From a virus, in IMG/VR virus record IMGVR_UViG_3300027763_000116, positions 1 through 38,549 of that record: 38,549 bases of DNA; one strand, written 5' to 3'. Positions 12,514 to 31,930 of this stretch are shown piece after piece; position 1 is the first letter of the stretch; the number at the start of each line of letters is the position of its first letter. The notes beneath the pieces are model-generated. The model was not told where the DNA came from. It was given only the letters and a program-made list of their open reading frames with translations, and searched no databases. The translations under genes were made by a program, and so were the position numbers.

Positions 12514-12516
12514 GGA
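12512..12516 (+). promoter_or_regulatory. Shine-Dalgarno site for the 1921-aa gene
   Basis: AAGGA lies six bases before the ATG at 12523, immediately after the gp8-like stop. It fixes the start of the long open frame. Confidence 0.6.
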
Positions 12517-12522
12517 ATTAAG

Positions 12523-18291: not shown

Positions 18292-18488
18292 TGAATAGCA
18301 ACGAAAACTTAAAGAGACTAGGTTCTAATCCAGGTGCGGTTGTAAACACCGACAATAATAGTCTCAGGGCTTATCGTGAGGCTAGGGAAAAACTTAGAAT
18401 ACGGGACAGAGACTTTGATCAAATGAAGAATGACGTCTTTGAACTTAAGTCAATGATGGCTCAAATACTAGAGAAGCTTAACAAATGA
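18291..18488 (+). CDS. Small coiled-coil protein (65 aa)
   Basis: A short, strongly charged protein. Residues about 25-63 (LRAYREAREKLRIRDRDF, then VFELKSMMAQILEKL) have a heptad-like hydrophobic pattern, suggesting a coiled coil and oligomerisation. I do not recognise a named family, but small proteins of this kind are often found between baseplate and fibre genes of marine T4-like phages. The ATG abuts the preceding stop by two bases and the stop overlaps the next start (ATGA), so it is in a coupled translation chain. A role as fibre assembly factor or connector is conjecture. Confidence 0.7.
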   Translation: MNSNENLKRLGSNPGAVVNTDNNSLRAYREAREKLRIRDRDFDQMKNDVFELKSMMAQILEKLNK

Positions 18489-19099
18489 CGATAGCGGTCG
18501 CAAATATAGACGTAACGACCGATTCATTCGGTCAATGGATTACGAAGACAAACGTCTTAGCAGACGCACTGTCAAATAAAGTTGTCACTACCAACTCAAA
18601 CACTGCAACTGGAAACGCTGCGGTATCATCTGCGTTCTCAGCTAATGCCTTATACGCTAATACTCTCTCGGGCGGTAATAACTCAGTAGCCGCAGCTCTT
18701 TCGATTTCAACTAATACTTCCTTTGCGGCGAACGTGGCTTTCAATGGTTATAGAACTAATCTAGGTTTAGGCGCGAACGTTATAATAAACTCTGGTAATA
18801 GCACTTTCAGGGTTCTGACAGTTAACTCAGCCGCTTCAAATACATTAGTAGCTACTAAATTAACTACCTCAGATTTATCGGACGTTAACACTTCTTCAGT
18901 TGGAAACGGGCAAGTATTAATATATAGTTCGGGTAACTCTTACTGGTACAATTCAAACGTTATCAATCTAAATGCTAATACAAGCACTGTAACTTTCTCA
19001 GGAAACATCGTTGTTGCGGGCGTCCAATATACGAACGGTCAATCGTTTAGTTCATTGGTAGTCTATTACGCTAATGGCACTCAAGCATTTCCAGCATAA
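18485..19099 (+). CDS. Short tail fibre protein (204 aa)
   Basis: The N-terminus (TTDSFGQWITKTNVLADALS, residues ~10-29) is the recurring attachment segment of fibre proteins in marine T4-like phages. It is followed by Asn/Ser/Ala/Thr-rich beta repeats. Residues about 130-155 contain NGQVLIYSSGNSYWY, resembling the GQVLTSNGTSMYW unit of the 893-aa fibre. The C-terminus VVYYANGTQAFPA closely matches that fibre's end (VYYANGSQAYP). The two proteins therefore appear to share a terminal domain or attachment peptide. The start overlaps the 65-aa gene (ATGA). Likely a minor or adaptor fibre; the receptor is unknown. Confidence 0.75.
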   Translation: MTIAVANIDVTTDSFGQWITKTNVLADALSNKVVTTNSNTATGNAAVSSAFSANALYANTLSGGNNSVAAALSISTNTSFAANVAFNGYRTNLGLGANVIINSGNSTFRVLTVNSAASNTLVATKLTTSDLSDVNTSSVGNGQVLIYSSGNSYWYNSNVINLNANTSTVTFSGNIVVAGVQYTNGQSFSSLVVYYANGTQAFPA

Positions 19100-19108
19100 G
19101 TATAAAAA

Positions 19109-20209
19109 ATGGCAGCTCTACTTAAGATCAATACTGCGACTAGTCCAAAATCACTGAAGCAAGCTTCTGGGACTGACTATGAATATGCGGTAAATTTGAT
19201 CCTTACTCAATTAATTGGTTCAACTTCAAACGCCAATATTACAGTAAATCCTGCGAGTACTACGGGATTAACACTTATTGGTACATTCACAGATACTTAC
19301 TTAAATGCTGCGGTTGGCGCTCACCCCATCGGCACGACACCAGTATCAGTCACGTATAACTTTTATCAAGATCAGCAAGTAGCTGCCGAATCTATCACAC
19401 GACCGGTTGAGTTTGTTAGCTCCACTATCAAAGAACAAGTAGATGCAAATCTTAACGCCGATTTGATCGCCACTGCGCTTTCTAACTTAGTATCTACTGG
19501 TATTGGTTTCTACGCTCTACAGACGACTACTCCAACCGGCGGGACTTGGGTATCAACGAGTACAATAACTAACACTCTTGACTCAACAACCACAAACACC
19601 ACTCAGCTTTGGAAAAAAACTGCGGCCGCGACTACGCCAACAGCATTAAGACCAGTTAAACTCAATACTGCTACGTCACCAATTTCTTTAAAAGAAATGT
19701 CAGACGCAGAGATTCAATCGCTAGCTACACGCGTAAAGAATCAGTTAGGAACTACTGGCATCGGAACTTTTAAAGTTCAAGCATCGGCTCCAACCCCAGG
19801 AACATGGACGTCATCTGGCGCAGCTTTCCTTGATACTACAAGAACAGCTTCACTTCTTCCTTATACTGGATCATATAGTGGTAGTTATTCCGGATCATAT
19901 ACCGGAAGTTTTAGTGGTACTTATACTGGAAGTTATAGTGGTGGTTATGCTGGTTCACGGTCAAAAGCTTATACAGGAACTTATCGAGCTAGCTTTGCTG
20001 GATTTTTAGGCACCGCATATTCGGGTACTTATACGGGATTTTATGCCGGTACTTACACTGGAAGTTATAGTGGTAATTATACTGGATCATATAGTAGTAA
20101 CTTTACTGGAAGTTATACGGGTAGTTACTCCGGAACTTATTCTGGAAATACGTTAAATAATGATAGCAGTACAGTATCAACAGTTTACTTATGGGTAAGG
20201 ACAGCATAA
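19109..20209 (+). CDS. Fibre/adhesin-like protein with 24 Tyr-Ser/Thr-Gly tetrapeptides
   Basis: Residues 1-250 hold two copies of one module: KINTATSPKSLKQASG (near residue 5) against KLNTATSPISLKEMSD (near 188), and TGIGFYALQTTTPTGGTW against TGIGTFKVQASAPTPGTW. Residues 252-347 are 24 consecutive four-residue units with aromatic-Ser/Thr-Gly-Ser/Thr as consensus (YTGS, YSGS, YSGT), never losing register. Only a few units deviate (RSKA, YRAS, LGTA). A short hydrophobic tail ends in STVYLWVRTA. This suggests an extended beta-solenoid or stacked-aromatic rod. Position among fibre genes supports a virion surface role. The many Ser/Thr/Tyr side chains make it a possible target for the modification enzymes that follow; that is speculation. 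Confidence 0.75.
   Translation: MAALLKINTATSPKSLKQASGTDYEYAVNLILTQLIGSTSNANITVNPASTTGLTLIGTFTDTYLNAAVGAHPIGTTPVSVTYNFYQDQQVAAESITRPVEFVSSTIKEQVDANLNADLIATALSNLVSTGIGFYALQTTTPTGGTWVSTSTITNTLDSTTTNTTQLWKKTAAATTPTALRPVKLNTATSPISLKEMSDAEIQSLATRVKNQLGTTGIGTFKVQASAPTPGTWTSSGAAFLDTTRTASLLPYTGSYSGSYSGSYTGSFSGTYTGSYSGGYAGSRSKAYTGTYRASFAGFLGTAYSGTYTGFYAGTYTGSYSGNYTGSYSSNFTGSYTGSYSGTYSGNTLNNDSSTVSTVYLWVRTA
19862..20149 (+). repeat. 24 x 12-bp in-frame tandem repeat coding for Y-[ST]-G-[ST]
   Basis: The DNA repeats with a 12-base period, for example TATAGTGGTAGT and TATACTGGATCA. Synonymous codons differ between units (GGA/GGT, TCA/AGT, TAT/TAC), so the amino-acid pattern is better conserved than the DNA. 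That points to selection on the protein rather than recent slippage. Confidence 0.9.
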
Positions 20210-20210
20210 T

Positions 20211-20669
20211 ATGGCAAGACAAATCATTAATCCTAGGTGGGGAAACGAAGACAAAACGCAGATCCTTGCTACGTTTAAATACGACGATGGTCGCGAAATG
20301 GTAGCTTCTATCAGCAATGTTGCAGATACGATGAATCCTGATTGGAAAGAGATCATGGATACGTTTGGCGTTGAACTTCTCGATCAAAACGCAGGTGATG
20401 CGCTTGAAAACCATATGAAAAGAAAAGCTGAGCGCGCAGAGAGAAAAAAAATCGACGAAGAAAGAGCACAAAAAGAAGCTCTTTTCAATCTGAAAGCTGA
20501 AGCCTTCGATATGGAAATAGTTAAGAATTCTAAAAATAGAGATGTAAAGAACAAGATTCGGCGCGCAGCAACGCCAACAGAAGTTCTTGTTTATACGGCG
20601 CTTCTCCACATGCTTGAAGATCCATTAGCTAATCCAGTTGCTATTACGCCGGTTGAACCAACAGCATAA
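20211..20669 (+). CDS. Unrecognised 152-aa protein with central charged helix
   Basis: The N-terminal 55 residues look like a small beta domain (INPRWGNEDKTQILATFKYD). Residues about 68-105 are a highly charged helix (HMKRKAERAERKKIDEERAQ) likely to form a coiled coil. The C-terminal 40 residues are hydrophobic-helical, ending in a Pro/Ala/Val tail. No named family was recognised. It is the last gene of the codirectional structural block, starting two bases after the fibre stop, before the enzyme island. A fibre-assembly or structural role is possible but unproven. A competing antisense frame across its 5' half was judged a shadow. Confidence 0.7.
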   Translation: MARQIINPRWGNEDKTQILATFKYDDGREMVASISNVADTMNPDWKEIMDTFGVELLDQNAGDALENHMKRKAERAERKKIDEERAQKEALFNLKAEAFDMEIVKNSKNRDVKNKIRRAATPTEVLVYTALLHMLEDPLANPVAITPVEPTA

Positions 20670-20671
20670 CT

Positions 20672-21415
20672 ATGAACGGTTTTTTGTATGTAGCTTCGCA
20701 GAGCAGTGCTTTCTATAAAGCTGCTGTATATTCTGCCATGTCCCTTCGTGATTATTACCCAGAAGCTAATATCACACTCTTTACGCACGCTGATTTCGTT
20801 CAGGAGTCTGATCGTAAGTTTTTCGATAAAATCGAAACTGGTATACCAATCCATAAGCGCGCTAAAATGTATGCGATGGCTAGAACACCATATGATAAGA
20901 CTTTTTACATAGACGCAGATACTGAAATTAGATCTGAGAATATTAAAAAAGTATTTGACAATCTTGGAAACAATGATATAATGTTTACTAAGATAATAGC
21001 AAAAGTTTCTAAAGATCGTTTAGTTAACTCTAAAAATAATCTAGAATATCATGGTGGTGTAGTTCTATATAATTCAAATAAGATTACTATTCAATTGATG
21101 CAAGATTGGTATGATACTTATTTGATACAAGATACGTGCCAGTGGAATAAAAGTCAATTTGCAGAATATAATCCTAAGATGAAACCATGGGATCAATTCA
21201 CTCTCTGGTATCTCTTAAATACTAAATACAAAGACATAAAGCATAATTTTTTTCCAGATGGCGGGCACGCTTTTAACTACATATACTTATTTGAGAACTA
21301 TAAAGAATTTGCTGACGTTGAACAAATAGTATATCATTATACAATATCACGTGACAGGATGGAAAATGCAATCATTATCAAACCTAAACCCGGACTTATT
21401 GAAGATTTTAACTGA
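20672..21415 (+). CDS. Putative glycosyltransferase, GT-A fold (nucleotide-diphospho-sugar transferase type)
   Basis: The protein (247 aa) begins with a beta strand and helix typical of GT-A enzymes (FLYVASQSSAFYKAAVYSAM). It has the metal/sugar-nucleotide Asp-x-Asp motif in FYIDADTEI (residues ~91-99), preceded by KMYAMARTPYDKT as in GT8-like enzymes. Further on come GGVVLYN (~131) and KPWDQFTLWYLL (~171), which fit the acceptor-side Asp-Gln motif of these transferases. No membrane segment is seen. It opens the enzyme island two bases after the preceding stop. It probably transfers a sugar to a virion or cell-surface acceptor; the donor and acceptor cannot be read from the sequence. Confidence 0.78.
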   Translation: MNGFLYVASQSSAFYKAAVYSAMSLRDYYPEANITLFTHADFVQESDRKFFDKIETGIPIHKRAKMYAMARTPYDKTFYIDADTEIRSENIKKVFDNLGNNDIMFTKIIAKVSKDRLVNSKNNLEYHGGVVLYNSNKITIQLMQDWYDTYLIQDTCQWNKSQFAEYNPKMKPWDQFTLWYLLNTKYKDIKHNFFPDGGHAFNYIYLFENYKEFADVEQIVYHYTISRDRMENAIIIKPKPGLIEDFN

Positions 21416-22025
21416 ATTCAGTAACTTCTTCTATAGCCGAGATTTTTCACACCTCGAGTCTTTAATTGGCTCAAATGAAAAGATGAAAAACGTTAGCGTT
21501 AAGTCTATGGCTTTAGAAGCGACTGGTGAAGAGTATTTAAGAAAAGCCCTTAAAGAAGATCCTATGAGATACGGATTCCCAAGACACTCTTGGGGTCTAG
21601 AGTTATCAATGGATCGTAAGTACATAGATGATAAAGAGCTTTTAGATAAATCTACGGAAGCAAATAGAAAACTAATCAATTTCTTTGGAGCTAGAAATAA
21701 CGCTCTACAAATGTTTTATCCTTCTGGTGGATATATCGGCTGGCACAGTAATTGTAACGCGCCTGGATTTAACATCGTGCTTTCTTTTAATCCTGAAGCT
21801 AGTGGATATTTTGAGCACTATGATCATGTTAACGATAAGTTTGTTAGGTTTGTCGACAAACCCGGATGGAATTGTAAAGTAGGTTATTTTGGTTCAGATA
21901 AAGAGTCCGAGAATATGTATTGGCACTGCGCCTATACAGACACGCCTAGACTGACTTTTAGCTACGTTATCGGCGATGAAAACATCTGGAAAGATATGGT
22001 AGATGATATCGGAATCCCCGATTAA
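21366..22025 (+). CDS. 2OG-Fe(II) oxygenase-like protein with His-x-Asn motif
   Basis: The C-terminal half has the double-stranded beta-helix pattern of 2-oxoglutarate/Fe(II) oxygenases: YPSGGYIGWHSNCNAPG, a GYFEHYD strand, and MYWHCAYTDTPRLTFSYVIG. In the last, the His would be the distal iron ligand and the Arg would bind 2OG. The usual His-x-Asp/Glu pair reads His-Ser-Asn here, so the facial triad is atypical. From memory, related oxygenases of cyanophages also show His-x-Asn, which would make it a family trait rather than decay. The chosen ATG at 21366 follows AGGATGG; a GTG at 21351 would lengthen the overlap with the preceding gene from 50 to 65 bases. Possible activity: hydroxylation of a protein or sugar; substrate unknown. 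Confidence 0.75.
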   Translation: MQSLSNLNPDLLKILTEFSNFFYSRDFSHLESLIGSNEKMKNVSVKSMALEATGEEYLRKALKEDPMRYGFPRHSWGLELSMDRKYIDDKELLDKSTEANRKLINFFGARNNALQMFYPSGGYIGWHSNCNAPGFNIVLSFNPEASGYFEHYDHVNDKFVRFVDKPGWNCKVGYFGSDKESENMYWHCAYTDTPRLTFSYVIGDENIWKDMVDDIGIPD

Positions 22026-22770
22026 GTTCATATGTTTAAAGTGGGGAACTAAGTATGGTCCCGAATACGTCAATAGACTCTTTCAATCAATATGTAAACA
22101 GTATCGCAATCCCTGCGAGTTTTATTGCTATACTGACAATCCTATTGGTCTTAAACCAGAAATAATAATAAGAGATATTGCTGAGCTTCGCAAAGTTGAG
22201 AACTCATGCTTTACGATGGAAAAGCTTTTTCTTTTTGATAGTCTAGATTTTGAGGGGCCTTATTGTCTTCTTGACATAGATATACTCATACAGTCAGACA
22301 TTACTTCTTACTTAGACGAATATAATTTCATTGAACCTAGATTCTCAATATGCGCCCGTCCACATACTGACATTGATTATATGAAAGCTGCGCCAATCTT
22401 TAGAGATTTTGGAACATGTTATGTAAACAGTTCATTTGTAACTTGGACTGGAGATCAACTCAAGTGGATGATTGATTTTTATATGAATAATAAAAAGATC
22501 ATTGACTATAAGTATAAAGACTTAGACACATTTCTATTTCATACTGTGCTTAAAGAAATGAAATTTCATCCAAGAAATATGATTTATTCTTTTAATCACG
22601 AAAAGACCCATTTAGATTCTCCTATAGTAATGTTTAATACATCACACGGAAGAGGTGTTGAACTTCACGAAGGTCCTACTTGGGCTAAAGAATTATGGGA
22701 ATCGTATGATAGTGAATCAGAATCCTCTCGTCTTCTAAACGAACATGTTTACGAGCAGCAGTCGTCATAA
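22003..22770 (+). CDS. Putative glycosyltransferase A1 (with C-terminal run-on)
   Basis: This 255-aa protein aligns end to end with the protein encoded at 23322-24032: KFICLKWGTKYGPEYVNRLF, GPYCLLDIDIL with the Asp-x-Asp metal motif, CYVNSSFVTWTGDQLKWM, and FNTSHGRGVELHE. These fit a GT-A sugar transferase. The paralog ends at WTRYD; this one reads WESYD and then continues for about 19 polar residues (SESESSRLLNEHVYEQQSS). The run-on passes into the 3' end of the opposing gene, giving an 86-base convergent overlap. The start is 23 bases inside the preceding gene and agrees with the paralog's N-terminus. Predicted cytoplasmic enzyme; donor unknown. Confidence 0.78.
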   Translation: MISESPIKFICLKWGTKYGPEYVNRLFQSICKQYRNPCEFYCYTDNPIGLKPEIIIRDIAELRKVENSCFTMEKLFLFDSLDFEGPYCLLDIDILIQSDITSYLDEYNFIEPRFSICARPHTDIDYMKAAPIFRDFGTCYVNSSFVTWTGDQLKWMIDFYMNNKKIIDYKYKDLDTFLFHTVLKEMKFHPRNMIYSFNHEKTHLDSPIVMFNTSHGRGVELHEGPTWAKELWESYDSESESSRLLNEHVYEQQSS

Positions 22771-23323
22771 TCTTTTTTGGAAAATACTCAACATTGCCGT
22801 ACTTATTAATGAAAGTATCATCTCCATAATGTTCGTGCGTGTGCTTAAATATATCTTCTATAAGCATCTCATACAAATAATGGTGTGAATCTCCAACCCA
22901 CCCCATGACTGAAGAGTTTCCATTACAAAAGAACTTTTCTTTATTCTTATAGTCTAACTTTTCAACTGAACTCCACCATTCATCATTCTTCCAAACTGTA
23001 TCTACTATTTTTAATACTTCTTTCTCAACTGTTTCGACTAAAAAATCTACGTTCTTTTTTATCAATATATCTAGATCAAAATACAGATTAATTCCAGGAC
23101 TGCATACGTCTTTATTGAACAAAGCTACTTTATTCCACCAAGTGTCAAGTTCAAATGGAGTTGCATCGATGAATTCAATTGGACGATTAGTCTTCCATTC
23201 ATAATCAGTAAAACAGTGCATCTTAAATTCATACGTTAAATACTTACAGAGCTGGTCGTATAAGTTTTCGACGTGCTCTATAGAATACTTTGGCTTCACT
23301 AAGACGCAGTAAACATTTATCAT
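22685..23323 (-). CDS. Putative glycosyltransferase B (diverged relative of the flanking pair)
   Basis: This 212-aa protein has the same plan as its two neighbours but is much diverged: an opening MINVYCVLVKPKYSIEHVEN, FKMHCFTDYEW where they have FYCFTD, NLYFDLDIL with the Asp-x-Asp-type motif (~77-84), and GNSSVMGWVGDSHHYLYEM in place of VNSSFVTWTGDQLKWM. It is shorter, lacking the FNTSH region, and ends in a basic/hydrophobic tail (HVRLEDERILIHYHTIPIIL). It is encoded against the direction of all structural genes. Its ATG overlaps the ATG of the next + gene (CATG), and its 3' end overlaps the preceding + gene. No convincing SD or promoter was seen. Confidence 0.72.
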   Translation of the reverse strand: MINVYCVLVKPKYSIEHVENLYDQLCKYLTYEFKMHCFTDYEWKTNRPIEFIDATPFELDTWWNKVALFNKDVCSPGINLYFDLDILIKKNVDFLVETVEKEVLKIVDTVWKNDEWWSSVEKLDYKNKEKFFCNGNSSVMGWVGDSHHYLYEMLIEDIFKHTHEHYGDDTFINKYGNVEYFPKKIMTTAARKHVRLEDERILIHYHTIPIIL

Positions 23324-24032
23324 GAATCAAACCGTTAAGTTTATAGTTTTAAAGTGGGGTACCAAATATGGGCCCGAATATGTTAATAGACTATTTAGGT
23401 CTCTGAAAGCAACCTATTCGGGTGAATTCGAGTTTTATTGCTTTACAGATAGTAGTCGTGGTGTTGAGTGTAAAACATATCCGATTGAGATGCTACCTCT
23501 ATTTAAATCGAATGTATTTACAGTATGTAAGCTCGATCTATTCAATAAGCTTCCTTTTAAGGGTCCGTATTGTCTTCTTGATCTTGATCTTCTTATTCTT
23601 AAAGATCTTAAACCATATTTCGATGAATATGGTTTTAAAGAACCGAGGATGATATACAATTATTGGACTGAAGTTCAAAGAATCTATAAATCATACTATA
23701 CTGGAGATTGCTACGTTAACAGTTCATTCGTGACTTGGGACGGAGATCAACTCAAGTGGATGCGAGATCGCTTTATAGAGAATCAGGAAGTAACAGCTTT
23801 CAGGTTCAAGACTTTAGATAAATTCATTTACTATAGCAGTCGCAAAGATATGAAGTATCATCCCCGCGGAATTGCTTATGCTTATAGTTTTGGGGCTGAA
23901 TACCCAAATGATCTAGATCCTTATAAGCAAAGAGATCAATACATATCGATTTTTAACACTTCACATAAGAAAGGTGTCGAGCTTCACGACGCCAATGGAT
24001 GGGCTAGAGATGTTTGGACCAGGTACGACTGA
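23322..24032 (+). CDS. Putative glycosyltransferase A2
   Basis: A close paralog of the 22003-22770 product: KFIVLKWGTKYGPEYVNRLF near the N-terminus, GPYCLLDLDLLIL carrying the Asp-x-Asp motif (~77-88), CYVNSSFVTWDGDQLKWM (~129), and FNTSHKKGVELHD near the C-terminus. It ends cleanly at WTRYD, which probably represents the ancestral end of this pair. The 236-aa length suits a compact GT-A transferase without membrane anchor. Its start codon overlaps the divergently read glycosyltransferase gene on the - strand. No SD is evident, so expression may depend on read-through transcription. Acceptor and donor are unknown. Confidence 0.78.
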   Translation: MNQTVKFIVLKWGTKYGPEYVNRLFRSLKATYSGEFEFYCFTDSSRGVECKTYPIEMLPLFKSNVFTVCKLDLFNKLPFKGPYCLLDLDLLILKDLKPYFDEYGFKEPRMIYNYWTEVQRIYKSYYTGDCYVNSSFVTWDGDQLKWMRDRFIENQEVTAFRFKTLDKFIYYSSRKDMKYHPRGIAYAYSFGAEYPNDLDPYKQRDQYISIFNTSHKKGVELHDANGWARDVWTRYD

Positions 24033-24642
24033 GCAAGACTACATTAAAGACTTAGACAAGATCCATGGCGAGATCTTTAAGCACCTTGATAGCAGAGGTT
24101 TAGAGTACGTTTATAGACTCTATGCAATGCACAATGATGAAAAGATGCGTAACCGTAACTTTATTGCTATGGACGTAATAAGGAAAAACTTCAAAAGTTT
24201 AAAGAATGTTGCAATAGTCAATAGTAGCAATCCTATTGCGCTAACCCACTTCTTAAAAAAAGAATATCAATCATCTGTAACTCTGGTATCTGATCATCCA
24301 TCGTTTGAGATGTCTGAAGGCTTCTTTCAAAGATTCTTTAAAGCCAATACGGTTATTAAAACCATATTCTTTGAAGACGTTGACTTTTCTTCTTATGATC
24401 TCGTGATATTGTCTGAGTTTGAGTATTTAGTTCCTCTTGATATGTTGAAGCACGTAAAATTTGGAGACTCACCAATCTTAGCACTTCAACATATCCAACA
24501 CGTTAATGATCACAATAGTCGTCACTTTGTGATGTGTATTGAAGACCTTCTTGAACTATGTAACTTTAAGAATTTATTAGATTCTAATGCTAAACTAAAT
24601 ACAGATAATAGATTAGTTTATTATGCACTTGGAGTGAGGTGA
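24010..24642 (+). CDS. Degenerate methyltransferase-like or unrecognised protein
   Basis: The middle region alternates strands and helices like a Rossmann fold: KNVAIVNSSNPIALTHFLKK, SSVTLVSDHP, then VDFSSYDLVILSEFEYLVP. This matches the strand order of class I SAM methyltransferases, but the glycine-rich SAM loop is replaced by NSSNP. It may be a diverged or inactive methyltransferase-like domain; confidence in that is low. The ATG at 24010 is preferred; a GTG at 23974 and an ATG at 23995 would extend it by 12 or 5 residues, further into the upstream glycosyltransferase gene. The 3' end overlaps the opposing sulfotransferase-like gene by 22 bases. Confidence 0.6.
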   Translation: MFGPGTTEQDYIKDLDKIHGEIFKHLDSRGLEYVYRLYAMHNDEKMRNRNFIAMDVIRKNFKSLKNVAIVNSSNPIALTHFLKKEYQSSVTLVSDHPSFEMSEGFFQRFFKANTVIKTIFFEDVDFSSYDLVILSEFEYLVPLDMLKHVKFGDSPILALQHIQHVNDHNSRHFVMCIEDLLELCNFKNLLDSNAKLNTDNRLVYYALGVR

Positions 24643-25265
24643 TTCGGCGGAGTAAGGATGATCTTTACATGTTCGTCAAGCCACCAAGGATCTGCGGCGT
24701 GAATGTATTTTTCATTCGCGTCTTGCTTTAGAATCTCGTCAATCTGCGGATCTTCCCACGCCATCGGAAAGTCAAGCCAGTGACCAAGCGATCTGATATA
24801 CTGACGTCGGTATAAGTACAAAAGTTCTTGGCTAACAAAGAATGGTGGCACCTTCATCCATTGAATAAGCTGAGGCATATTTCCCCATGTTGGTCCACCT
24901 CGAAGTCTAGTTTGTTGATGAGTTAAGATGTTCTTGTCTCTGCCTATAACTACAGGTTGAACATCGATTCCAAGACTTTCACACTTTTCAATAAATTCAA
25001 AAATTGGTGGAACTTTAGGCAGCCACTTTTCGATATAAGGATTGCTTATACTCGTCACGGCGTATTTCTTTCCGCCCATGATATTCAAATCTATTTTATC
25101 GATGTTATTCCAATAGTAGTTGAAAGGCTCTTTGTAGTGAGGGATAAAGTATCCATCGGGTTTAAGCGCGTCTTTCCACCCGTGAACTTCCGGATGCATA
25201 CTAAAGATTTTACTGAATAGATGATTGCCAGATCCTTGTGGACCAAATAATACTATGAGTTTCAT
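24621..25265 (-). CDS. Putative sulfotransferase-like P-loop protein
   Basis: The 214-aa protein starts with a strand and nucleotide-binding loop, MKLIVLFGPQGSGNHLFSKI. This fits the 5'-phosphosulfate-binding loop of PAPS-dependent sulfotransferases, and the downstream FSMHPEVHGW is a common context for it. A second strand, VQPVVIGRDKNILTHQQ (~101-117), fits the 3'-phosphate-binding Arg region. Sulfotransferase is preferred over kinase because no lid or substrate motifs of nucleotide kinases are visible. It is the second gene of a two-gene - strand operon, its ATG overlapping the stop of the methyltransferase gene (TAATG). It converges on and overlaps the + strand gene by 22 bases. Acceptor unknown. 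Confidence 0.68.
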   Translation of the reverse strand: MKLIVLFGPQGSGNHLFSKIFSMHPEVHGWKDALKPDGYFIPHYKEPFNYYWNNIDKIDLNIMGGKKYAVTSISNPYIEKWLPKVPPIFEFIEKCESLGIDVQPVVIGRDKNILTHQQTRLRGGPTWGNMPQLIQWMKVPPFFVSQELLYLYRRQYIRSLGHWLDFPMAWEDPQIDEILKQDANEKYIHAADPWWLDEHVKIILTPPNHLTPSA

Positions 25266-26014
25266 TATTTTTTAATCAACTCAAAGTAAAGTCTATTTCC
25301 ATTATCTTTCTTAAATGACTCTAGTTTACAATTATGAAGAACTGCTATGTTATACGCAGTCTCAAAGTCCCATGGATAGATATCAACCCACTGACCATTC
25401 TTATGAATTTCTCCAGGATTAGCTCTAACATAGATAGTACCACCCGGCATAGTCAAGTCTACAACTTTCTTGAACTTGTCGTTAATATCGCTAAATTCAC
25501 CAAAGTTAATACTGCCAAAAACAATAACATGATCGTATGATTCATTGGGAACGTTATAGTCTAGAATATCAACCATGAAGTCGGCTGAATTATTGAATGC
25601 ATCGATGCCTATAAGATTCTGGATTCTGGCTTTAAACTGATTAAAACCACAACCAACGTCAAGTACGGCTTTAGGATTCGAATTATTAATTCTATCTACG
25701 ATATTCCATCCAGTGTATTGATACACCTCAGTCCTTGGCTGCCATATTCCTCCCCAGAATCTAGAACTATACTTGGTGTCAATGTCAGCCACGAGCATAG
25801 AAACTGATAGATCAATGTTAATATCAACATCGAATGTATCATTCAATAAAGCTATAAACTTCTCAAGTTTCTTTGGAGTCCATGGAAGCGATAGTACCAT
25901 AGTATTCACACTAATGCTTTCACGAGCTTGCGCGTATTTTGGAAGATTAAAGCACTCTTTTAAATTTTTAAATACAAAGTTAAATATTTTACGATTCACA
26001 ATAAAAATTCCCAT
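25265..26014 (-). CDS. SAM-dependent methyltransferase
   Basis: A class I methyltransferase core is clear: motif I AVLDVGCGFNQFKARI (~115-130), an acidic residue after strand 2 in LIGIDAFNNSADFM, and motif IV as SYDHVIVFGSINFGEFSD (~160-177). Then come PGGTIYVRANPGE and a final LYFELIKK strand. The first 90 residues are a separate N-terminal region with no motif I know. The catalytic region is homologous to the + strand methyltransferase at 29641-30249, sharing LDVGCGxNxFK and SINFG. It leads the - strand pair with the sulfotransferase-like gene, read from the intergenic region 26015-26085. Substrate unknown; a sugar or small-molecule acceptor would suit its neighbours. Confidence 0.8.
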   Translation of the reverse strand: MGIFIVNRKIFNFVFKNLKECFNLPKYAQARESISVNTMVLSLPWTPKKLEKFIALLNDTFDVDINIDLSVSMLVADIDTKYSSRFWGGIWQPRTEVYQYTGWNIVDRINNSNPKAVLDVGCGFNQFKARIQNLIGIDAFNNSADFMVDILDYNVPNESYDHVIVFGSINFGEFSDINDKFKKVVDLTMPGGTIYVRANPGEIHKNGQWVDIYPWDFETAYNIAVLHNCKLESFKKDNGNRLYFELIKK

Positions 26015-26030
26015 TTAAGATATTTTTTTC

Positions 26031-26060
26031 CCTACTAGTTATATATATAGATTAGTAAGG
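26031..26060. promoter_or_regulatory. Divergent promoter/operator candidate
   Basis: This is the only intergenic space in the island between divergently read genes (26015-26085). It contains the arms TACTA (26033-26037) and TAGTA (26053-26057), symmetric about a TATATATATA core at 26040-26049, with CC and GG outside. The AT-rich core could supply -10 elements in both directions and the dyad could be a regulator site. No TATAAATA late core is present, so early or middle expression is possible. No clear -35 was identified. Confidence 0.4.
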
Positions 26061-26085
26061 AATTTTTCTTTAGAGGATGAAAAAA

Positions 26086-26829
26086 ATGACAGAATATCAA
26101 GATTGGGGCGATAGTCGCTGGGAATTTACTAAGAAGCAGAGCAGCTGGCATTTTGATCCTAGTAAACCACCAGTTCCAGGCACCGATAGTTATACGTATG
26201 TCTGTAGATTTAATTCCGACTTCACTGACGCTATTTCAAAGTGCATGCCTCGAGCAAAAGCAAGCAATTGGAGTAGTCGAAATAATTTCAATGAAAAGAT
26301 AGCTGAAGAGGGTTTGTATTCTGCGAGCGTTGAAGAGAAAGATCTAATCAAAGCTGGTGCAGATCCAAAACAAGAAGTATTTCATCGAACAGCTGCTGAA
26401 GATATTGAGATCTTTCAAAAGATTGCTGAGTATCTTGGAATTGATGAACCCATGATTAAGTTTCATAATCAGACTACAGGTCAGATGCTTCATACACATA
26501 TAGATAACTTTGCAGCTCGACCCGAGCGCGAAAACAGTTTCAAAGAAATTGACATCGATAAGAATCCAAACATTATGCGAAGGTTTGTAGTCATGTTAGC
26601 TGACTGGGAACTTGGGCAGATCTTTCAGATTGGTAATGCAAACTTTACTCAATGGAAAGCTGGCGACTGCATTACTTGGGAATGGAAAGACATGCCACAC
26701 AGCACCGCTAATATGGGATGGTGGGATAGGCCGATGCTTCAAATCACGGGTTATATAACAGATAGAACTAAAGAATTACTTAATGAAGTATACAATGTTA
26801 CCGGCAAGAATTTAGTGGTAAAAATATGA
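26086..26829 (+). CDS. 2OG-Fe(II) oxygenase-like protein (aspartyl/asparaginyl or prolyl hydroxylase type)
   Basis: The C-terminal half shows a full iron site: GQMLHTHIDNF gives His-x-Asp (HID), and WKDMPHSTANMG gives the distal His. It is followed by DRPMLQITG, whose Arg could bind 2-oxoglutarate. The strands between (MRRFVVMLADWELGQIFQIG, then WKAGDCITWEW) fit a double-stranded beta-helix. The start at 26086 is preferred because GAGG at 26073-26076 is spaced nine bases from it and touches the upstream in-frame ATG at 26077. The N-terminal 100 residues have no recognised motif. It is unrelated in detail to the other oxygenase in the island. Its stop overlaps the next start. Likely hydroxylates a protein or small molecule; substrate unknown. 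Confidence 0.75.
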   Translation: MTEYQDWGDSRWEFTKKQSSWHFDPSKPPVPGTDSYTYVCRFNSDFTDAISKCMPRAKASNWSSRNNFNEKIAEEGLYSASVEEKDLIKAGADPKQEVFHRTAAEDIEIFQKIAEYLGIDEPMIKFHNQTTGQMLHTHIDNFAARPERENSFKEIDIDKNPNIMRRFVVMLADWELGQIFQIGNANFTQWKAGDCITWEWKDMPHSTANMGWWDRPMLQITGYITDRTKELLNEVYNVTGKNLVVKI

Positions 26830-27560
26830 ATCAGGTTACTATAGTAGTATATCCACCGGGGGCTTATGGTAGTTTTATCAGCTGGATGATAGAACGGTTT
26901 AGTAAACACCGCACGGATGTAATAGACAATCCACTATTATCAGATGGTAGTAGTCACGGTTATGCTAGTTTCTGTAAAGTCAAAGGCATAGATGATTTTA
27001 TGGCGGGACTTGAAGAAGCTCGCAATAATACTAAGCCATGGCATACTAACGTATATGCTGGTTGGCCTTCTAACCCATCAGAAAACTTAGATGACAATAT
27101 CAAGACTATACTAAATTGGATGATGCCTTTCGATAGATTAATCTACATTGATGTAGATAGCGCAGAGGAACACATATTATGTTATTTGCGAAATGAAGCA
27201 ACTATGAATCGTGATCGTTGGTATGATATGCTAGGTGTAGATAACGATGATCAATTAGCTGAAAGATTACGTATTGACATCGATAGTCATGGACTATCAT
27301 CTATAATCGACTCTAGGTTAACTAGATTAATCATAGGGGATATCTTAGACGGATTTGCGTCTGACCTATGGTCCAGGATGTGTAGAATACTTGGATGGCC
27401 TATGAAAGACTATAATTTATATCTTGAAGTCATCAAAGAGATGAGACTTAAACAACAAATATTCTATCAGTTAATAGCTGAAGGATTTGGGCCGGAAGGA
27501 ACTCCGGTTCAACGCGCTGCATTTAAATATTTTAAGGAGAAAAACAATGGATCTAACTAA
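26826..27560 (+). CDS. P-loop-like protein of unknown function (possible sulfotransferase relative)
   Basis: The protein (244 aa) begins VTIVVYPPGAYGSFISWMIE, a strand-loop-helix resembling the nucleotide-binding start of sulfotransferase-like proteins, but without the Gly-Lys-Ser/Thr of a classical Walker A. A second strand FDRLIYIDVDSAEEHIL (~105-121) could be the 3'-phosphate region, though no Arg-Ser pair is obvious. The C-terminal 60 residues are helical and charged. The ATG overlaps the preceding oxygenase stop (ATGA) and the 3' end overlaps the symporter gene start by 14 bases, so it belongs to the same + strand operon. A sulfotransferase relative is the best guess; it may equally be a phage-specific family. 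Confidence 0.6.
   Translation: MNQVTIVVYPPGAYGSFISWMIERFSKHRTDVIDNPLLSDGSSHGYASFCKVKGIDDFMAGLEEARNNTKPWHTNVYAGWPSNPSENLDDNIKTILNWMMPFDRLIYIDVDSAEEHILCYLRNEATMNRDRWYDMLGVDNDDQLAERLRIDIDSHGLSSIIDSRLTRLIIGDILDGFASDLWSRMCRILGWPMKDYNLYLEVIKEMRLKQQIFYQLIAEGFGPEGTPVQRAAFKYFKEKNNGSN
27534..27539 (+). promoter_or_regulatory. Strong ribosome binding site of the symporter gene
   Basis: AAGGAG lies seven bases before the ATG at 27547. It settles the start at 27547 and rejects an in-frame start 60 bases upstream. It is the strongest SD in the island and suggests that the transporter is made in quantity. Confidence 0.75.
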
Positions 27561-29016
27561 AATTTTCCCATTATTTACTCCCGACACCGGCATTATGGTT
27601 TTAGGAATCTACGCTGCTATCGTGTTTGGATTGACATGGGTTTTTGCTAAAGGTTATGCCACTAGTAAAGAGGGTTTCTTTGTAGCCCGCAGGGAAGTAG
27701 GTGCACTTCAGGGGGCTATGAGTACTGGTGCTGCTTGGATGTGGGCGCCTGGAATGTTCATCTCTGCACAGCAAGCTTATATGAATGGACTAGTCGGATT
27801 GTTCTGGTTCTGTATTGGTAACTTCCTAAGTCTTATATTCTTCAGTTGGTTTGCTAAGAGATTAAGAGATAAGAAACCCGATGGTTTTACTATTTCAGGT
27901 TATCTTAAAGAAAAGTTTGGTAAACGTGTTCAATCATTGTTTATGGTAGAACTATTTAGTCTCGCTATTTGTAGCTTTGCTATTAACGTATTAGCGGGAT
28001 CTAAATCGGTTCAGGTTCTGACTGGATTAGATTATCACTTTGTTAGTTTGATTCTAGCAACTATTGCATTGACTTATACTTTGCGTGGTGGATTAAAAGC
28101 ATCAGTTATAACCGAAATATTCAAACTGTCTGTGTTGGTATTGGGCTTGGGCGTATTAATGCCTTGGGCAGTCAGTGCCGCGGGTGGTTGGGGTGTAGTT
28201 GATCTTGGCCTTGGTGGTATCACTGGTAATGGTCGTGATATCTTTGGCACGGACTTTGCTCTAGGCGTGTTTATGGGCTTTGGCTTTTCTACTGCTATTG
28301 GTCATATGGGCGCACCATGGGGTGATAATGCATTCTATCAACGTGCTTTTGCTGTAAAGAAAGACAGTGTTATTAAAGCATTTGTTGGCGGAGCATTCAT
28401 ATTCATTCTAACACCATTGATGACTGGTATTCTTGGCTTCCTTGCTGCTGGTATGCATTACGAAGTTCCTAAAGAATTACTTGGTTATGTTAACGTGCTT
28501 ACTGTTGGTAACCTATTGCCAGCATGGGCTGCTATCATGTATTTGTTTATGTTGTTCGCGGGCCTCGTATCTGTGCTTGACTCACAACTTAGTAGCGTCA
28601 GTAATATCTTTGGACACGACGTTAAGAACATGATTAGACCACACGGCGACGATCAAGCTAGCATCGATATCGGAAGAGTTGGTATGTTATTCTTAATCGC
28701 AGCTGGTCTGACTCTGGCTAACTGGCCAGGAATGACTCTAGTCACTATCTTTTTATTCTTTGGTATTCTTAGGGCTACTGTGTGGTTCCCATTGATGTTT
28801 AGTCTTTTGAATGAAAAGTTAGTTAATGAAGCTGGTATGTTCTGGGGCGTATTGATTGCTTACTTGGTTGGATTCTCAACTTATGTTTATGGTCAAAACT
28901 TCGGCGGTGGTCCAAACATCGCAGTACTTGGAACTTGTCTTGCTGTCTTTGGTTCAGGCGCTTTGGCTCTTGGAATCACAAAGTTGCAAAACGCAAACTT
29001 TAATGGCGATAAGTGA
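27547..29016 (+). CDS. Sodium:solute symporter family (SSS) membrane transporter
   Basis: The product of 489 aa is a typical full-length member of the SSS family (Na+-coupled uptake of proline, sugars, urea, carboxylates and others). About 13 hydrophobic segments are visible, including GIMVLGIYAAIVFGLTWVFA, GLFWFCIGNFLSLIFFSWFA, FVSLILATIALTYTLRGGLK and LPAWAAIMYLFMLFAGLVSV. The family-like substrate/Na+ region appears as EGFFVARREVGALQGAMSTG followed by AAWMWAPGMF in the first core helix. The loop ALTYTLRGGLKASVITEIFK is the well-known 'Y-T-x-x-G-G-L-x-A-x-x-x-T-D/E' SSS signature. FAGLVSVLDSQLSSVSNIFG matches the second conserved region. No truncation is seen. The substrate cannot be assigned. 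Transporters of this size are unusual cargo in a T4-like structural cluster. Confidence 0.9.
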   Translation: MDLTKIFPLFTPDTGIMVLGIYAAIVFGLTWVFAKGYATSKEGFFVARREVGALQGAMSTGAAWMWAPGMFISAQQAYMNGLVGLFWFCIGNFLSLIFFSWFAKRLRDKKPDGFTISGYLKEKFGKRVQSLFMVELFSLAICSFAINVLAGSKSVQVLTGLDYHFVSLILATIALTYTLRGGLKASVITEIFKLSVLVLGLGVLMPWAVSAAGGWGVVDLGLGGITGNGRDIFGTDFALGVFMGFGFSTAIGHMGAPWGDNAFYQRAFAVKKDSVIKAFVGGAFIFILTPLMTGILGFLAAGMHYEVPKELLGYVNVLTVGNLLPAWAAIMYLFMLFAGLVSVLDSQLSSVSNIFGHDVKNMIRPHGDDQASIDIGRVGMLFLIAAGLTLANWPGMTLVTIFLFFGILRATVWFPLMFSLLNEKLVNEAGMFWGVLIAYLVGFSTYVYGQNFGGGPNIAVLGTCLAVFGSGALALGITKLQNANFNGDK

Positions 29017-29639
29017 ATAAGTACATATTCATAACGGGGGCTCCAGGTTCTGCCTGGAGCCGAGTTGCATCAAGCATATATAAAAGTACGAGTCTAGATA
29101 ATAGCGATTACTCGAGTGATCGTACTTTTACATATGTAAATGATGAAAAACAAATAGAAAAAAGCTTTCATCATGGCGTATATTTTGGTCCAGATCAACA
29201 ATTCGGAAAAAGATTCGATAAATTATACGAGATGACTAAAGATGAGATTGAACTGGAGATGAATCTTCCTTTCAATAGTTCTGGCATAAAGGTTATTAAG
29301 TGCCATGACTTCTCATATCAATTAGATTTTTTATCAGAGACTTGGCCTGAGTGTCCAATAATAATGTGCCATAGGCCTATGGAAATAAGTTATGATTGGT
29401 GGATGCACATAGGTGGTCCAAATATAACTTATCCATCTTATAAGTCTATTGATCCTAAGAAATATATTAATCTCTGCAACGATGGAATATATGATTTTAT
29501 CAAAAAGAATAAAACTATTGAAGTTAAAAACAACATGGAATTATGTGAAGTTTTAGAGATCGATCCGGTGAATGATATATATTATTACGATAACTCTGAT
29601 GGTAAAAATGTTATTACGAATGTGAATGTGAAGGTTTAA
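29013..29639 (+). CDS. Putative sulfotransferase-like protein S1
   Basis: This 208-aa protein begins NKYIFITGAPGSAWSRVASS, a strand plus nucleotide loop with GAPGSxWS in place of the P-K-S/T-G-T-T-W loop of PAPS sulfotransferases. Residues about 109-124 (CPIIMCHRPMEISYDWW) hold an Arg followed five residues later by a Ser on a helix, as in the 3'-phosphate site. It is a clear paralog of the protein encoded at 30246-30935, sharing the loop, a GxYFxPxxxFG segment, IKxIKxHxFSYxLD and xGxxNITYPxY. The ATG overlaps the symporter stop (GATAAGTGAATAAG region). Likely transfers sulfate to a small molecule, sugar or protein; enzymatic activity is unproven. Confidence 0.7.
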   Translation: MNKYIFITGAPGSAWSRVASSIYKSTSLDNSDYSSDRTFTYVNDEKQIEKSFHHGVYFGPDQQFGKRFDKLYEMTKDEIELEMNLPFNSSGIKVIKCHDFSYQLDFLSETWPECPIIMCHRPMEISYDWWMHIGGPNITYPSYKSIDPKKYINLCNDGIYDFIKKNKTIEVKNNMELCEVLEIDPVNDIYYYDNSDGKNVITNVNVKV

Positions 29640-29640
29640 T

Positions 29641-30249
29641 ATGGAAAACGTTTTCTCTCTAATTAAAGAAGCAAATGATGAAATTCTTTGGATGTTTTCC
29701 AAAGACGTTCATGAACTCATCCTCGATAAGTACTTTAGTACATATTTTGAAGACGTGCCAGACTTAAGTAAATATTCTATTGTGCACACAGTTGAAACTA
29801 ATTGGTGTAAGAATATTCTAGATGTCGGCTGTGGGCACAATCACTTCAAATATGAATTCTTAGCTTGCCGCTTCACGAGCATTGATCCCTACATTGATGG
29901 TGCAGACTATAAGATGAATGTTATAGAATATCAGGAAAACTTCCCTGATCGTCAATACGACTGTCTAATAGCTTTAGACTCTATTAACTTTGGCCCTAAA
30001 CCTAAAATTTTAGCTGAGATTGAAGCTATAGATAAACTTACTCAATCTGGAGGCTTACAGATTTGGCGTGTTAATAATAAAAATGAACCACGAATCGATG
30101 AAACGTTTCCAATCTCCGAACTAATTCAGTATTTTAAATGGGATAGAGATTTCATACAACACGTTGTTAACATTTATGATTATGAACTTATAGAATACAC
30201 AGAAGAGTCTGATAATATCTTATTTGTAATGAAGAAAAGCTCGCAATGA
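29641..30249 (+). CDS. SAM-dependent methyltransferase, paralog of the - strand enzyme
   Basis: Class I methyltransferase motifs are present: NILDVGCGHNHFKYEF (motif I, ~58-73), the acidic post-strand-2 residue in FTSIDPYIDGADYKMNV, and QYDCLIALDSINFGPKP (motif IV). A strand GGLQIWRVNNKNEP and the final ILFVMKKS follow. It shares LDVGCGxNxFK and SINFG with the methyltransferase encoded at 25265-26014 but lacks most of that protein's N-terminal region. It lies between two sulfotransferase-like paralogs, one base after the first and overlapping the second by four bases (ATGA). The acceptor may be the same class of molecule as for its neighbours; that is inference from arrangement. Confidence 0.8.
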   Translation: MENVFSLIKEANDEILWMFSKDVHELILDKYFSTYFEDVPDLSKYSIVHTVETNWCKNILDVGCGHNHFKYEFLACRFTSIDPYIDGADYKMNVIEYQENFPDRQYDCLIALDSINFGPKPKILAEIEAIDKLTQSGGLQIWRVNNKNEPRIDETFPISELIQYFKWDRDFIQHVVNIYDYELIEYTEESDNILFVMKKSSQ

Positions 30250-30935
30250 AATATAGTCCTCTAATGAAATATATTTTTGTAACTGGCGCACCAGGATCTA
30301 AATGGAGTTCAGTGGTTCGCAATATCTATTTTAGTAGTAGCATAAATCAAAGCGATTTTTCTATGGAACGCAGATATTATCATGATGCTTCCGGAAAGCG
30401 GCAATTAATGCACCTCGGATCTTATTTTGATCCAGGAATGGAATTTGGAAGTGACTTCTATATATTAGACTCAATTGAAAAAGAAGAAGCTGAAGCTAAA
30501 TTTCATAAACCATTTACCAATGATGTTGGTATAAAGATCATAAAGAGCCACTTCTTCTCTTATCATCTTGATCACATAAAAAGAACTTGGAAAGACCCAA
30601 TCGTTTTAGTATATCGTAACTCCGATTCTTGCATAGGTTGGTGGGTTAGATGTGGCCACTTTAATATCACGTATCCAAAGTATGATTATTACAGCGATAT
30701 AGACTCTATGGTAAAATACATTGATTCTCAGAATAAAGCTATTAAGAAATTCATCGAAGAAAATGATGTATTGCAACTTCATAATAGTATTGAATTAGCT
30801 CGAGCATTAGGCATCAATCACGATAGCGTCAATAGTAAAGGCGAAATGGACGTTTATTATCAAGACTATGAAAAGAACGATATTAAAGTTTATCTTTATT
30901 GGCCTAAATATGATGGAAGCGAAGCTTTTAGTTGA
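30246..30935 (+). CDS. Putative sulfotransferase-like protein S2
   Basis: A paralog of the 29013-29639 product: KYIFVTGAPGSKWSSVVRNI, GSYFDPGMEFGSDFY, GIKIIKSHFFSYHLDHI and GHFNITYPKYDYY align directly. The likely 3'-phosphate strand reads DPIVLVYRNSDSCIGWW with Arg and Ser suitably placed. The start at 30246 overlaps the methyltransferase stop (ATGA); an ATG at 30264 would give an N-terminus matching the paralog exactly, so the first six residues are uncertain. The C-terminus (VYLYWPKYDGSEAFS) is longer than in the paralog. It is the last gene of the island, directly before a late promoter. Function is inferred from fold motifs only. Confidence 0.7.
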   Translation: MKYSPLMKYIFVTGAPGSKWSSVVRNIYFSSSINQSDFSMERRYYHDASGKRQLMHLGSYFDPGMEFGSDFYILDSIEKEEAEAKFHKPFTNDVGIKIIKSHFFSYHLDHIKRTWKDPIVLVYRNSDSCIGWWVRCGHFNITYPKYDYYSDIDSMVKYIDSQNKAIKKFIEENDVLQLHNSIELARALGINHDSVNSKGEMDVYYQDYEKNDIKVYLYWPKYDGSEAFS

Positions 30936-30938
30936 AAA

Positions 30939-30946
30939 TATAAATA
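30939..30946 (+). promoter_or_regulatory. T4-type late promoter before the BppU-like/endolysin/PAAR genes
   Basis: A perfect TATAAATA lies just after the island's last stop. The expected transcription start is near 30952, leaving a leader of about 19 bases with GAGG five bases before the ATG at 30971. This marks the return to conventional late expression. Confidence 0.7.
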
Positions 30947-30970
30947 GTTTGAAACTAAATTGAGGTTACC

Positions 30971-31297
30971 ATGTCAATAAAACTAAATCTTGTTATAGAT
31001 CAGGGTTCAACCTATTCTAATGCAATTCTCGTTAAAGATTCAAGTAATAGCGCAATTAATCTTTCAACATACACCGTAGCCGGACAAATTAGGAAGCATT
31101 ATACTTCCTCTAACAGTACGTCTTTTACGGCTACTGGAAATAGTACTGGATACGTAAATATTTCTTTAACATCGAATTCTACAACAAGTCTTTCTTCAGG
31201 AAGATACGTTTACGATATCGAGATCACCAGCAATACCGGTATCGTAACCCGTGTAGTTGAGGGTATCGCAACACTCACCCCTCAAGTTACTAGATAA
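30971..31297 (+). CDS. BppU N-terminal-like beta-sandwich phage protein (108 aa)
   Basis: A short all-beta protein whose pattern is familiar from phage baseplate/fibre proteins with a BppU N-terminal-like domain. It has an opening LNLVIDQGSTYSNAILVKDS, a central INLSTYTVAGQIRKHY, an STGYVNISLTSNSTTSL segment, and SGRYVYDIEITSNTG with EGIATLTPQVTR at the end. In other phages the domain tethers or decorates baseplate appendages. It is read from its own late promoter with a good SD (GAGG). No catalytic residues were seen. The domain resemblance is by pattern from memory and should be checked by profile search; an Ig-like decoration protein is the alternative. Confidence 0.65.
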   Translation: MSIKLNLVIDQGSTYSNAILVKDSSNSAINLSTYTVAGQIRKHYTSSNSTSFTATGNSTGYVNISLTSNSTTSLSSGRYVYDIEITSNTGIVTRVVEGIATLTPQVTR

Positions 31298-31318: not shown

Positions 31319-31930
31319 ATGCTTACAGAAGAACAAATCAAGCACGATTACCCGAATTCAAAACCAGAAATTGTTAAAGCACTGGTCGAAAGCTTTAAAA
31401 CTCTTGAAAGCAAATATGATATTTCGGGTTTGCGTCTTGCTCACTTTCTTGCTCAGACTGCACATGAATCGGGCGGCTTCCGTGTGATTGAAGAAAATCT
31501 TAACTATTCAGCCGAGGGTCTTACAAAGATCTTCCCAAAGTACTTCAAAGATAAGGACCCGAACGAATATGCTAGAAAGCCTGAAAAAATTGCGAACGTT
31601 GTTTACGCCTCGAGAATGGGTAATGGTGATACTGCTTCTGGTGACGGCTATAAGTTTCGCGGTCGCGGACTTATCCAACTTACAGGAAAAAGCAATTATT
31701 CTGGGTTCGCAGCTGATTCCGGCGTGAATATTGACGAAGCTGTTGCTTATCTCTCAACTCCATCTGGAGCTATTGAATCAGCAGCCTGGTTCTGGCACAA
31801 GAATGGTCTTAATGCTCTAGCTGATAAAGATGACGTTACGGCGGTCACCAAAAAGATCAATGGTGGAACTATTGGCCTTGAAGATCGTAAGAAGCATACT
31901 AGCGAATTCAAGAAAATCCTGAAGGTCTAA
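31319..31930 (+). CDS. GH19-type endolysin (chitinase-like muramidase fold)
   Basis: The protein (203 aa) matches glycoside hydrolase family 19-type lysins. It has AHFLAQTAHESGGFRVIEEN, with Glu50 as likely catalytic acid, NYSAEGLTKIFPKYF, the conserved YKFRGRGLIQLTGKSNY (~111-127), and a C-terminal SAAWFWHKNGLNALAD with KKINGGTIGLEDRKKH. Such enzymes cut the glycan strand of peptidoglycan and are used for lysis or as virion hydrolases. No signal peptide or transmembrane segment is seen, so a separate holin would be needed; none was recognised in this window. AAGGA at 31306-31310 sets the ATG. It would complement the M15-type peptidase of the hub protein, which attacks the peptide part. Confidence 0.88.
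   Translation: MLTEEQIKHDYPNSKPEIVKALVESFKTLESKYDISGLRLAHFLAQTAHESGGFRVIEENLNYSAEGLTKIFPKYFKDKDPNEYARKPEKIANVVYASRMGNGDTASGDGYKFRGRGLIQLTGKSNYSGFAADSGVNIDEAVAYLSTPSGAIESAAWFWHKNGLNALADKDDVTAVTKKINGGTIGLEDRKKHTSEFKKILKV

Follow-up and report, generated by a model that had tools for sequence, protein, structure and literature searches.

The host recognition clusters of pelagimyophages and cyanomyophages have been described as non-syntenic, and their glycosyltransferases have been read as modifiers of the O-chain of lipopolysaccharide (LPS) (PMC7029224). For SUP05 phages, 2-oxoglutarate (2OG)-Fe(II) oxygenases and tctA have been listed as auxiliary metabolic genes (PMC4164917), and OM43 phages have sulfotransferases whose function is called unclear (PMC10580990). 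The locus described here is a decoration island of 14 open reading frames (ORFs), all intact, at positions 20672-30935 of a viral sequence of 38,549 nucleotides (IMG/VR record IMGVR_UViG_3300027763_000116, positions 1 to 38,549; hereafter the window). The window comes from a T4-like phage and constitutes its structural region. The island consists of three layers: a fixed frame, a variable cargo slot and a portable cassette. Like the host recognition cluster (PMC7029224), it lies in the T4-like structural region before the neck genes and combines fibres and glycosyltransferases with variable content. Unlike that cluster, its variable part is bordered by a fixed frame (repeat fibre, small protein, GT1, OG1 and pL) whose genes are syntenic in 35 of 35 OG1 loci, the cargo alone varying, and it carries a cassette for sulfation, methylation, oxidation and import. 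With the SUP05 (PMC4164917) and OM43 (PMC10580990) phages it shares single cassette gene types; the available parts of those two papers do not describe the cassette, the co-occurrence of its genes or the mutual exclusivity of its transporters. A search of the open literature, with subscription papers and preprints outside its scope, returned no description of the fixed frame, the slot or the cassette with exclusive transporters. An earlier prediction made from the DNA alone (the original prediction) knew of no described system with this exact set. The cassette is apparently undescribed and may prove to be of a new kind. In our assessment, the reading of the island as a locus for tail-fibre modification, in which a fixed frame borders a variable cargo slot that here includes the portable cassette, stands at about an even chance of being correct.

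The frame begins with a repeat fibre (19109-20209, plus strand), the candidate substrate, whose C-terminal part (residues 252-347) consists of consecutive [YF]-[TS]-G-x tetrapeptides; relatives have about 10 to 82 of these repeats. A small protein (20211-20669, plus strand), perhaps involved in fibre assembly, lies between the fibre and GT1 and holds the same place in relatives and in phage C48C1. It is followed by GT1 (20672-21415, plus strand), a GT-A-like putative glycosyltransferase, and OG1 (21366-22025, plus strand), which resembles 2OG-Fe(II) oxygenases in its motif. The right border of the slot, on the side of the island opposite to OG1, is pL (30971-31297, plus strand), a protein like the L-shaped-tail-fibre-assembly family (phrog_3304, 1.2e-21). 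When GT1 was used as the anchor, 30 of the 31 loci had a repeat fibre two genes upstream, and the remaining one is truncated by the end of its contig; among loci lacking GT1 a comparable repeat protein was seen in just three. Anchoring independently on OG1 (496 relatives in the scan) gave GT1 directly upstream in all 35 distinct loci with room for it and a repeat fibre within four genes, two or three genes beyond GT1, in 34 of the 35, across loci in which OG1 identity drops to about 32%. A search of 50,697 phage records found no match to the window fibre; a diverged frame was found there in phage C48C1 (Kyanoviridae). This is a bare frame, consisting of a giant fibre in which YxG occurs at least 125 times, the small protein, GT1, OG1 and pL, in which pL starts 65 bp after OG1 and the frame genes are annotated as hypothetical. 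The C48C1 genome (OQ984149.1) has three OG1-like genes, at 18384, 40130 and 152349, one of which adjoins GT1 and the repeat fibre. Because the pairing of GT1 and OG1 with YxG fibres is near-perfect, the fibre is the likely substrate. Judged from the sequences and their linkage, fibre decoration is the best-supported role of GT1 and OG1, and the glycosyltransferases of the cargo probably serve the same role.

Active-site residues are invariant in GT1, OG1 and OG2. The DXD, W-D and H motifs of GT1 are invariant in 15 relatives, and GT1 has no Pfam or PDB profile match. In OG1, H132-x-N134, H192 and R200 are invariant in 16 relatives, so that HxN stands in 16 of 16 in place of the HxD/E of the 2OG-Fe(II) oxygenase motif (HxD/E...H...R), and neither Pfam nor PDB gave a match. 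The chemistry of OG1 is uncertain, because an Asn stands where hydroxylases have Asp or Glu; the protein may have an unusual two-histidine iron site or be an inactive binding protein. In giant viruses, collagen-type hydroxylation and glycosylation pair an oxygenase with a glycosyltransferase on a low-complexity repeat protein, as is proposed here; there the repeat is Gly-X-Y and here it is [YF][ST]G-x, with HxN in OG1.

The variable cargo slot extends from OG1 to pL (22026-30970). In relatives the distance between these two genes, which are always on one strand, ranges from 65 bp in C48C1 to 9.7 kb, and it is 8.9 kb in the window; the contents comprise varying glycosyltransferases, methyltransferases, sulfotransferase-like proteins and transporters. 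In the window the slot opens with three predicted glycosyltransferases: GT2 (22003-22770, plus strand; DID motif), which is 45% identical to GT4, GT3 (22685-23323, minus strand; DLD motif; phrog_1962 'glycosyltransferase', 2.8e-7) and GT4 (23322-24032, plus strand; DLD motif; the same profile, 4.9e-5). A scan anchored on GT2 and GT4 yielded 116 relatives. The four GT-A-like proteins of the original prediction all have a DXD motif; the PHROG glycosyltransferase profile is matched by GT3 and GT4 only, GT2 is supported through its identity to GT4, and GT1 is assigned on motifs only. MTd (24010-24642, plus strand), taken in the same prediction for a degenerate methyltransferase, is conserved in relatives and 82% identical to its counterpart in the close relative L043 (157.6 kb; gp17 90% identical), and has no Pfam or PHROG match. 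The complete island, with its order kept, is present in L043. A near relative with a gp17 of 89% identity (L036, 2-1655) has another importer at this place: a DUF401/CitMHS-type permease and an 'IPEWxK' protein replace the island upstream of the endolysin.

Further into the slot lies the cassette, with ST1, MT1 and OG2 as its core and with ST3 and a transporter as further members. ST1 (24621-25265, minus strand) carries an invariant GPQGxGNH motif, and its AlphaFold model, built from 40 sequences, has a mean predicted local distance difference test score (pLDDT) of 94.2. The first 13 PDB fold matches of this model are all sulfotransferases, headed by human TPST1 (E 3.2e-4, probability 1.0). 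ST1 thus shares a fold and a P-loop of the type that binds 3'-phosphoadenosine-5'-phosphosulfate (PAPS) with tyrosylprotein sulfotransferase 1 and the curacin sulfotransferase domain. Unlike these enzymes, it has no sequence-profile similarity to sulfotransferases in Pfam or the PDB profiles, and its TM-scores are modest, about 0.4-0.5, so that the fold is clear and the substrate class is not. The structural model therewith supports the assignment of ST1 as a predicted PAPS-dependent sulfotransferase. Of the other proteins given this label, ST2 (29013-29639, plus strand) is a sulfotransferase-like P-loop protein 42% identical to ST3 (30246-30935, plus strand). The ST3 model (pLDDT 88.7) has PDB matches that mix kinases and sulfotransferases, none at E 0.001; its P-loop lacks the kinase lysine, and its single strong match by structure is to a protein of viral origin named 'Sulfotransferase family' (E 1e-30), a match to a database name and not to an assay. 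ST4w (26826-27560, plus strand), a cassette protein with a PGAxGSF motif, is conserved in nine phages. Sequence profiles of ST3 and ST4w gave no convincing match against PDB. The three predicted sulfotransferases were therefore upheld to different degrees, ST1 by its fold and ST2 and ST3 as P-loop proteins with ambiguous PDB folds; the weaker fourth, ST4w, could be assigned to no family.

MT1 (25265-26014, minus strand) has an LDvGCG motif conserved in 30 relatives and a sub-threshold Pfam score to Methyltransf_25; its paralogue MT2 (29641-30249, plus strand) scores below threshold to Methyltransf_23 (0.003). Both are probable class I S-adenosylmethionine (SAM) methyltransferases by their motifs, as originally proposed; the degenerate third methyltransferase of that proposal, MTd, is unassigned. 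OG2 (26077-26829, plus strand) has the full 2OG-Fe(II) oxygenase motif (H141-x-D143, H208, R218), with HxD...H...R invariant in 26 relatives and no Pfam match, so that of the two oxygenase-like proteins expected OG2 stands and OG1 is a resemblance only. In PDB sequence profiles, OG2 showed only weak, partial similarity to AtsK (E 0.02), insufficient for use as a clue to its substrate. Three pairs of paralogues are present in the island (GT2/GT4, ST2/ST3 and MT1/MT2). Profile-profile comparisons of ST1, ST3 and ST4w, of OG1 and OG2, and of GT1 and GT4 gave no clear relation, and the shared ST, OG and GT labels are therefore given on motif or fold only.

The importer of the cassette, SSS (27547-29016, plus strand), is a sodium/solute symporter and the only island protein to pass a Pfam cut-off (PF00474, 5e-25, 88.6 bits against a cut-off of 22.8, full domain; phrog_20720, 5e-92), which makes the Na+ symporter the firmest of the original assignments. 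Its best PDB match is DUR3 (2.8e-26), a likeness too broad to serve as a substrate clue, and a bacterial donor of the gene was not found among 84,980 species genomes. A symporter scan in IMG/VR recovered genes 53-94% identical in other phages, almost all of them accompanied by ST1 and MT1 and the majority also by OG2, ST4w and ST3, in genome contexts that differ (adjoining replication, topoisomerase, ligase or structural genes). Scans anchored on ST1 and MT1 gave at least 582 and at least 519 relatives, respectively. Hundreds of phage contigs from metagenomes carry the cassette; they belong to small as well as jumbo phages, and some are 329 to 525 kb long. After near-identical anchors and loci with short flanks were removed, the 38 ST1 loci held MT1 (35), a transporter (32), ST3 (30) and OG2 (26), and the 36 MT1 loci held a transporter (34), OG2 (32), ST3 (32) and ST1 (20); no cassette family occurred in 20 control gp17 loci. 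The transporter was the symporter in 20 ST1 loci, and in 12 it was represented by TctC or TctA of the tripartite tricarboxylate type, with none having both; the corresponding numbers for the MT1 loci were 12, 22 and 0. TctC (PF03401, 2e-19) and TctA (PF01970, 1e-85) lie above their cut-offs. The chance of zero overlap if transporters were placed randomly is about 7e-6 for the ST1 loci and 7e-8 for the MT1 loci, although relatedness among the loci means that neither figure is a strict probability. In several phages an adenosine-5'-phosphosulfate (APS) kinase (PF01583, 1e-14 to 1e-15, above the Pfam cut-off) and a CTP_transf_like nucleotidyltransferase lie between the symporter and ST3, and further partners in other relatives are a di-iron-like protein, a cupin, a glutamine amidotransferase and amidinotransferase-like proteins, the last labelled by eye without a Pfam match. 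Sulfation chemistry is supported by the ST1 fold together with the APS kinase of relatives. A sulfotransferase, a 2OG oxygenase and an O-methyltransferase are also combined in sulfazecin-type tailoring; the island has no nonribosomal peptide synthetase, and the parallel is a lead only.

In the 50,697 phage records, relatives of MT1 and ST3 occurred only in one virus from a marine single-amplified genome (SAG), and ST1, for which a single distant relative served as the query, had no match. That the ST1 and fibre queries found nothing there is part of the reason that the cassette has gone unnoticed. Bacterial relatives of ST1 were limited to Janthinobacterium, Massilia and three contigs of metagenome-assembled genomes (MAGs), of which two or more resemble phage. 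Contigs L143 and L145, labelled as Rhodobacteraceae and Rhodospirillaceae MAGs, have replication or structural genes of phages and appear to be phage sequence that was binned into MAGs. In the Janthinobacterium and Massilia genomes (L142 and L146) the ST1 relative has a di-iron-like protein and a cupin as neighbours; L142 has, in addition, a sulfatase and a relative of MT1. This arrangement may represent a bacterial counterpart of the pathway.

Across many phages the island families are found again with their order kept, and the window compared with L043 has a nonsynonymous divergence of 0.03-0.22 (0.38 in ST4w) with synonymous sites saturated. Low nonsynonymous change at saturated synonymous sites indicates that the genes are maintained under purifying selection, and it is this pattern, with the recurrence, that places the island beyond chance. 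ST4w and SSS of the window (26826-29016) are 80% and 94% identical to those of relative L040, whose cassette sits in a different genome context, against 45% and 84% to the syntenic L043, and MT1 and OG2 are nearer L043 than L040; these identities suggest mosaic ancestry, with exchange of the ST4w-SSS segment. Of 32 records checked, which are mostly cassette carriers, 30 lack OG1, and several frame carriers have no MT1. Because frame and cassette each occur without the other, also in long genomes, they are separable. The 14 genes were accordingly rejected as one fixed pathway, and the single route of glycosylation, sulfation, methylation and hydroxylation first imagined for them did not hold, since the cassette and GT1/OG1 are each found alone in long genomes.

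For substrates, order of steps and destination the following mechanism is proposed. OG1 and GT1 would modify the dense [YF][ST]G-x repeats in the fibre whose gene lies just upstream, as their gene linkage suggests, and the exchangeable glycosyltransferases of the slot would extend or cap the fibre glycan; in the simplest model, a conserved initiating step by OG1 and GT1 is followed by cargo enzymes that vary elongation or capping. One importer, the Na+/solute symporter here and TctC/TctA in relatives, would take up a small solute, and the 2OG oxygenase, the SAM methyltransferase(s) and the PAPS-dependent sulfotransferase(s) would make a hydroxylated, methylated and sulfated group from that solute or from a glycan, joined in some relatives by the phage APS kinase. 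Within the slot the cassette group would most likely decorate the fibre glycan; elsewhere an envelope-bound or free metabolite is possible. If this is true, T4-like phages own a modular fibre-decoration locus with a logic like that of the O-antigen loci of bacteria, in which the start is constant and the genes for elongation can be exchanged. Many glycosyltransferases of host recognition clusters, now usually taken as LPS modifiers, would then gain a testable explanation, and the cassette would provide viruses with a sulfation pathway that includes an importer and, in relatives, a PAPS supply of its own.

The original prediction named virion fibres or the host envelope as the target; the tie of the frame to a fibre gene was borne out, and the target may be the virion or the envelope. 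The enzymes could instead remodel the LPS or another surface glycan of the host and so exclude competing phages, the nearness of the fibres reflecting co-evolution of receptor binding and receptor change. Glycosyltransferases of the same region in pelagimyophages have been interpreted in this way (PMC7029224), and in other phages the cassette is distant from fibre genes, but GT1 and OG1 travel with one repeat fibre and its small partner over the deep divergence of OG1, an envelope modifier would need no fibre partner, and the genes are located among late structural genes; we regard envelope remodelling as rather unlikely. Variation in the size and content of the slot would also be expected of passive or decaying DNA at a recombination hot spot, and 'stuffer DNA' has been raised as a possibility for LPS gene clusters of large cyanophages (PMC3037559). 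The selection pattern contradicts this, active-site residues are invariant and co-occurrence is conserved, so that such an origin is very improbable.

Metabolism is a more serious alternative for the cassette, which could be an auxiliary pathway that imports an organic acid-like solute and makes a small sulfated, methylated metabolite, which would serve as an osmolyte, a signal, a store or a form of nutrient; the cassette would then lie in the fibre slot only incidentally. The strongest argument is that the importer is single and exchangeable, each cassette having exactly one of two unrelated types, which points to a small-molecule pathway; an importer built into the cassette suggests metabolism of an imported solute. 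The di-iron-like, cupin, glutamine amidotransferase and by-eye amidinotransferase-like partners, the similar neighbours of ST1 relatives in Janthinobacterium and Massilia, one with a sulfatase, and the many genome positions of the cassette agree with it, but several phages also carry the gene set together with glycosyltransferases between OG1 and pL. We consider this explanation quite plausible, if somewhat short of probable. Several observations weigh against the tail-fibre modification locus: the importer is more easily explained by metabolism than by virion decoration; many frame carriers lack the cassette and many cassette carriers lack the frame, so that a common product is not required; HxN would disable a typical hydroxylase; the PDB folds of ST3 are ambiguous and ST4w has no profile relation to ST1 or ST3; and the modified fibre is a prediction from gene content and linkage. 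The fibre and small-molecule views would be compatible if the cassette supplied a modified building block for the fibre glycan. The most far-reaching form of the proposal, a dedicated phage protein-glycosylation system acting on fibre repeats, in which an HxN oxygenase, an initiating glycosyltransferase and the slot give a switchable glycan coat, plus a portable import and sulfation pathway through which some fibres bear sulfated glycans, is offered tentatively.

The boundaries and arrangement of the island are as first described, including the small overlaps, in which neighbouring ORFs abut or overlap by a few to tens of bases, and the strand switches, with GT3, ST1 and MT1 as the minus-strand genes. 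Fibre genes occupy 18485-20209 on the left, and an endolysin gene (phrog_181, 3e-74) starts at 31319 on the right, followed by gp13, gp14, gp15, gp16, gp17 and gp18, of which gp13-gp16 and gp18 were labelled from T4 gene order without a profile test. The gp17 protein shares about 54% identity with its counterparts in cyanophages and in marine SAG viruses, and 53% with that of Pelagibacter phage Mosig. None of ten proteins tested matched the PADLOC defence models at E 0.001, and an anti-phage defence system was rejected on this ground. Promoter and terminator scans gave totals near those of shuffled sequence. The island appeared to be absent near gp17 in two relatives (L005 and L011), where the 10 kb upstream looked empty; this was dismissed, as both carry it further upstream. 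One record (L014) is without OG1 and MT1, and another (L009) is a 37.6 kb fragment whose MT1 match has a stop near its end. In three relatives (L032, L034 and L035, around 10001-12579) gp17 is found as two matches about 1 kb apart, which suggests an intein or intron in the terminase. In a further relative (L227, 2-2437) a Hint/intein-like stretch (CFDPDANVLMSDRTWKRIADIVAGD...) seems to be part of the large protein of baseplate type that is encoded upstream of the fibres.

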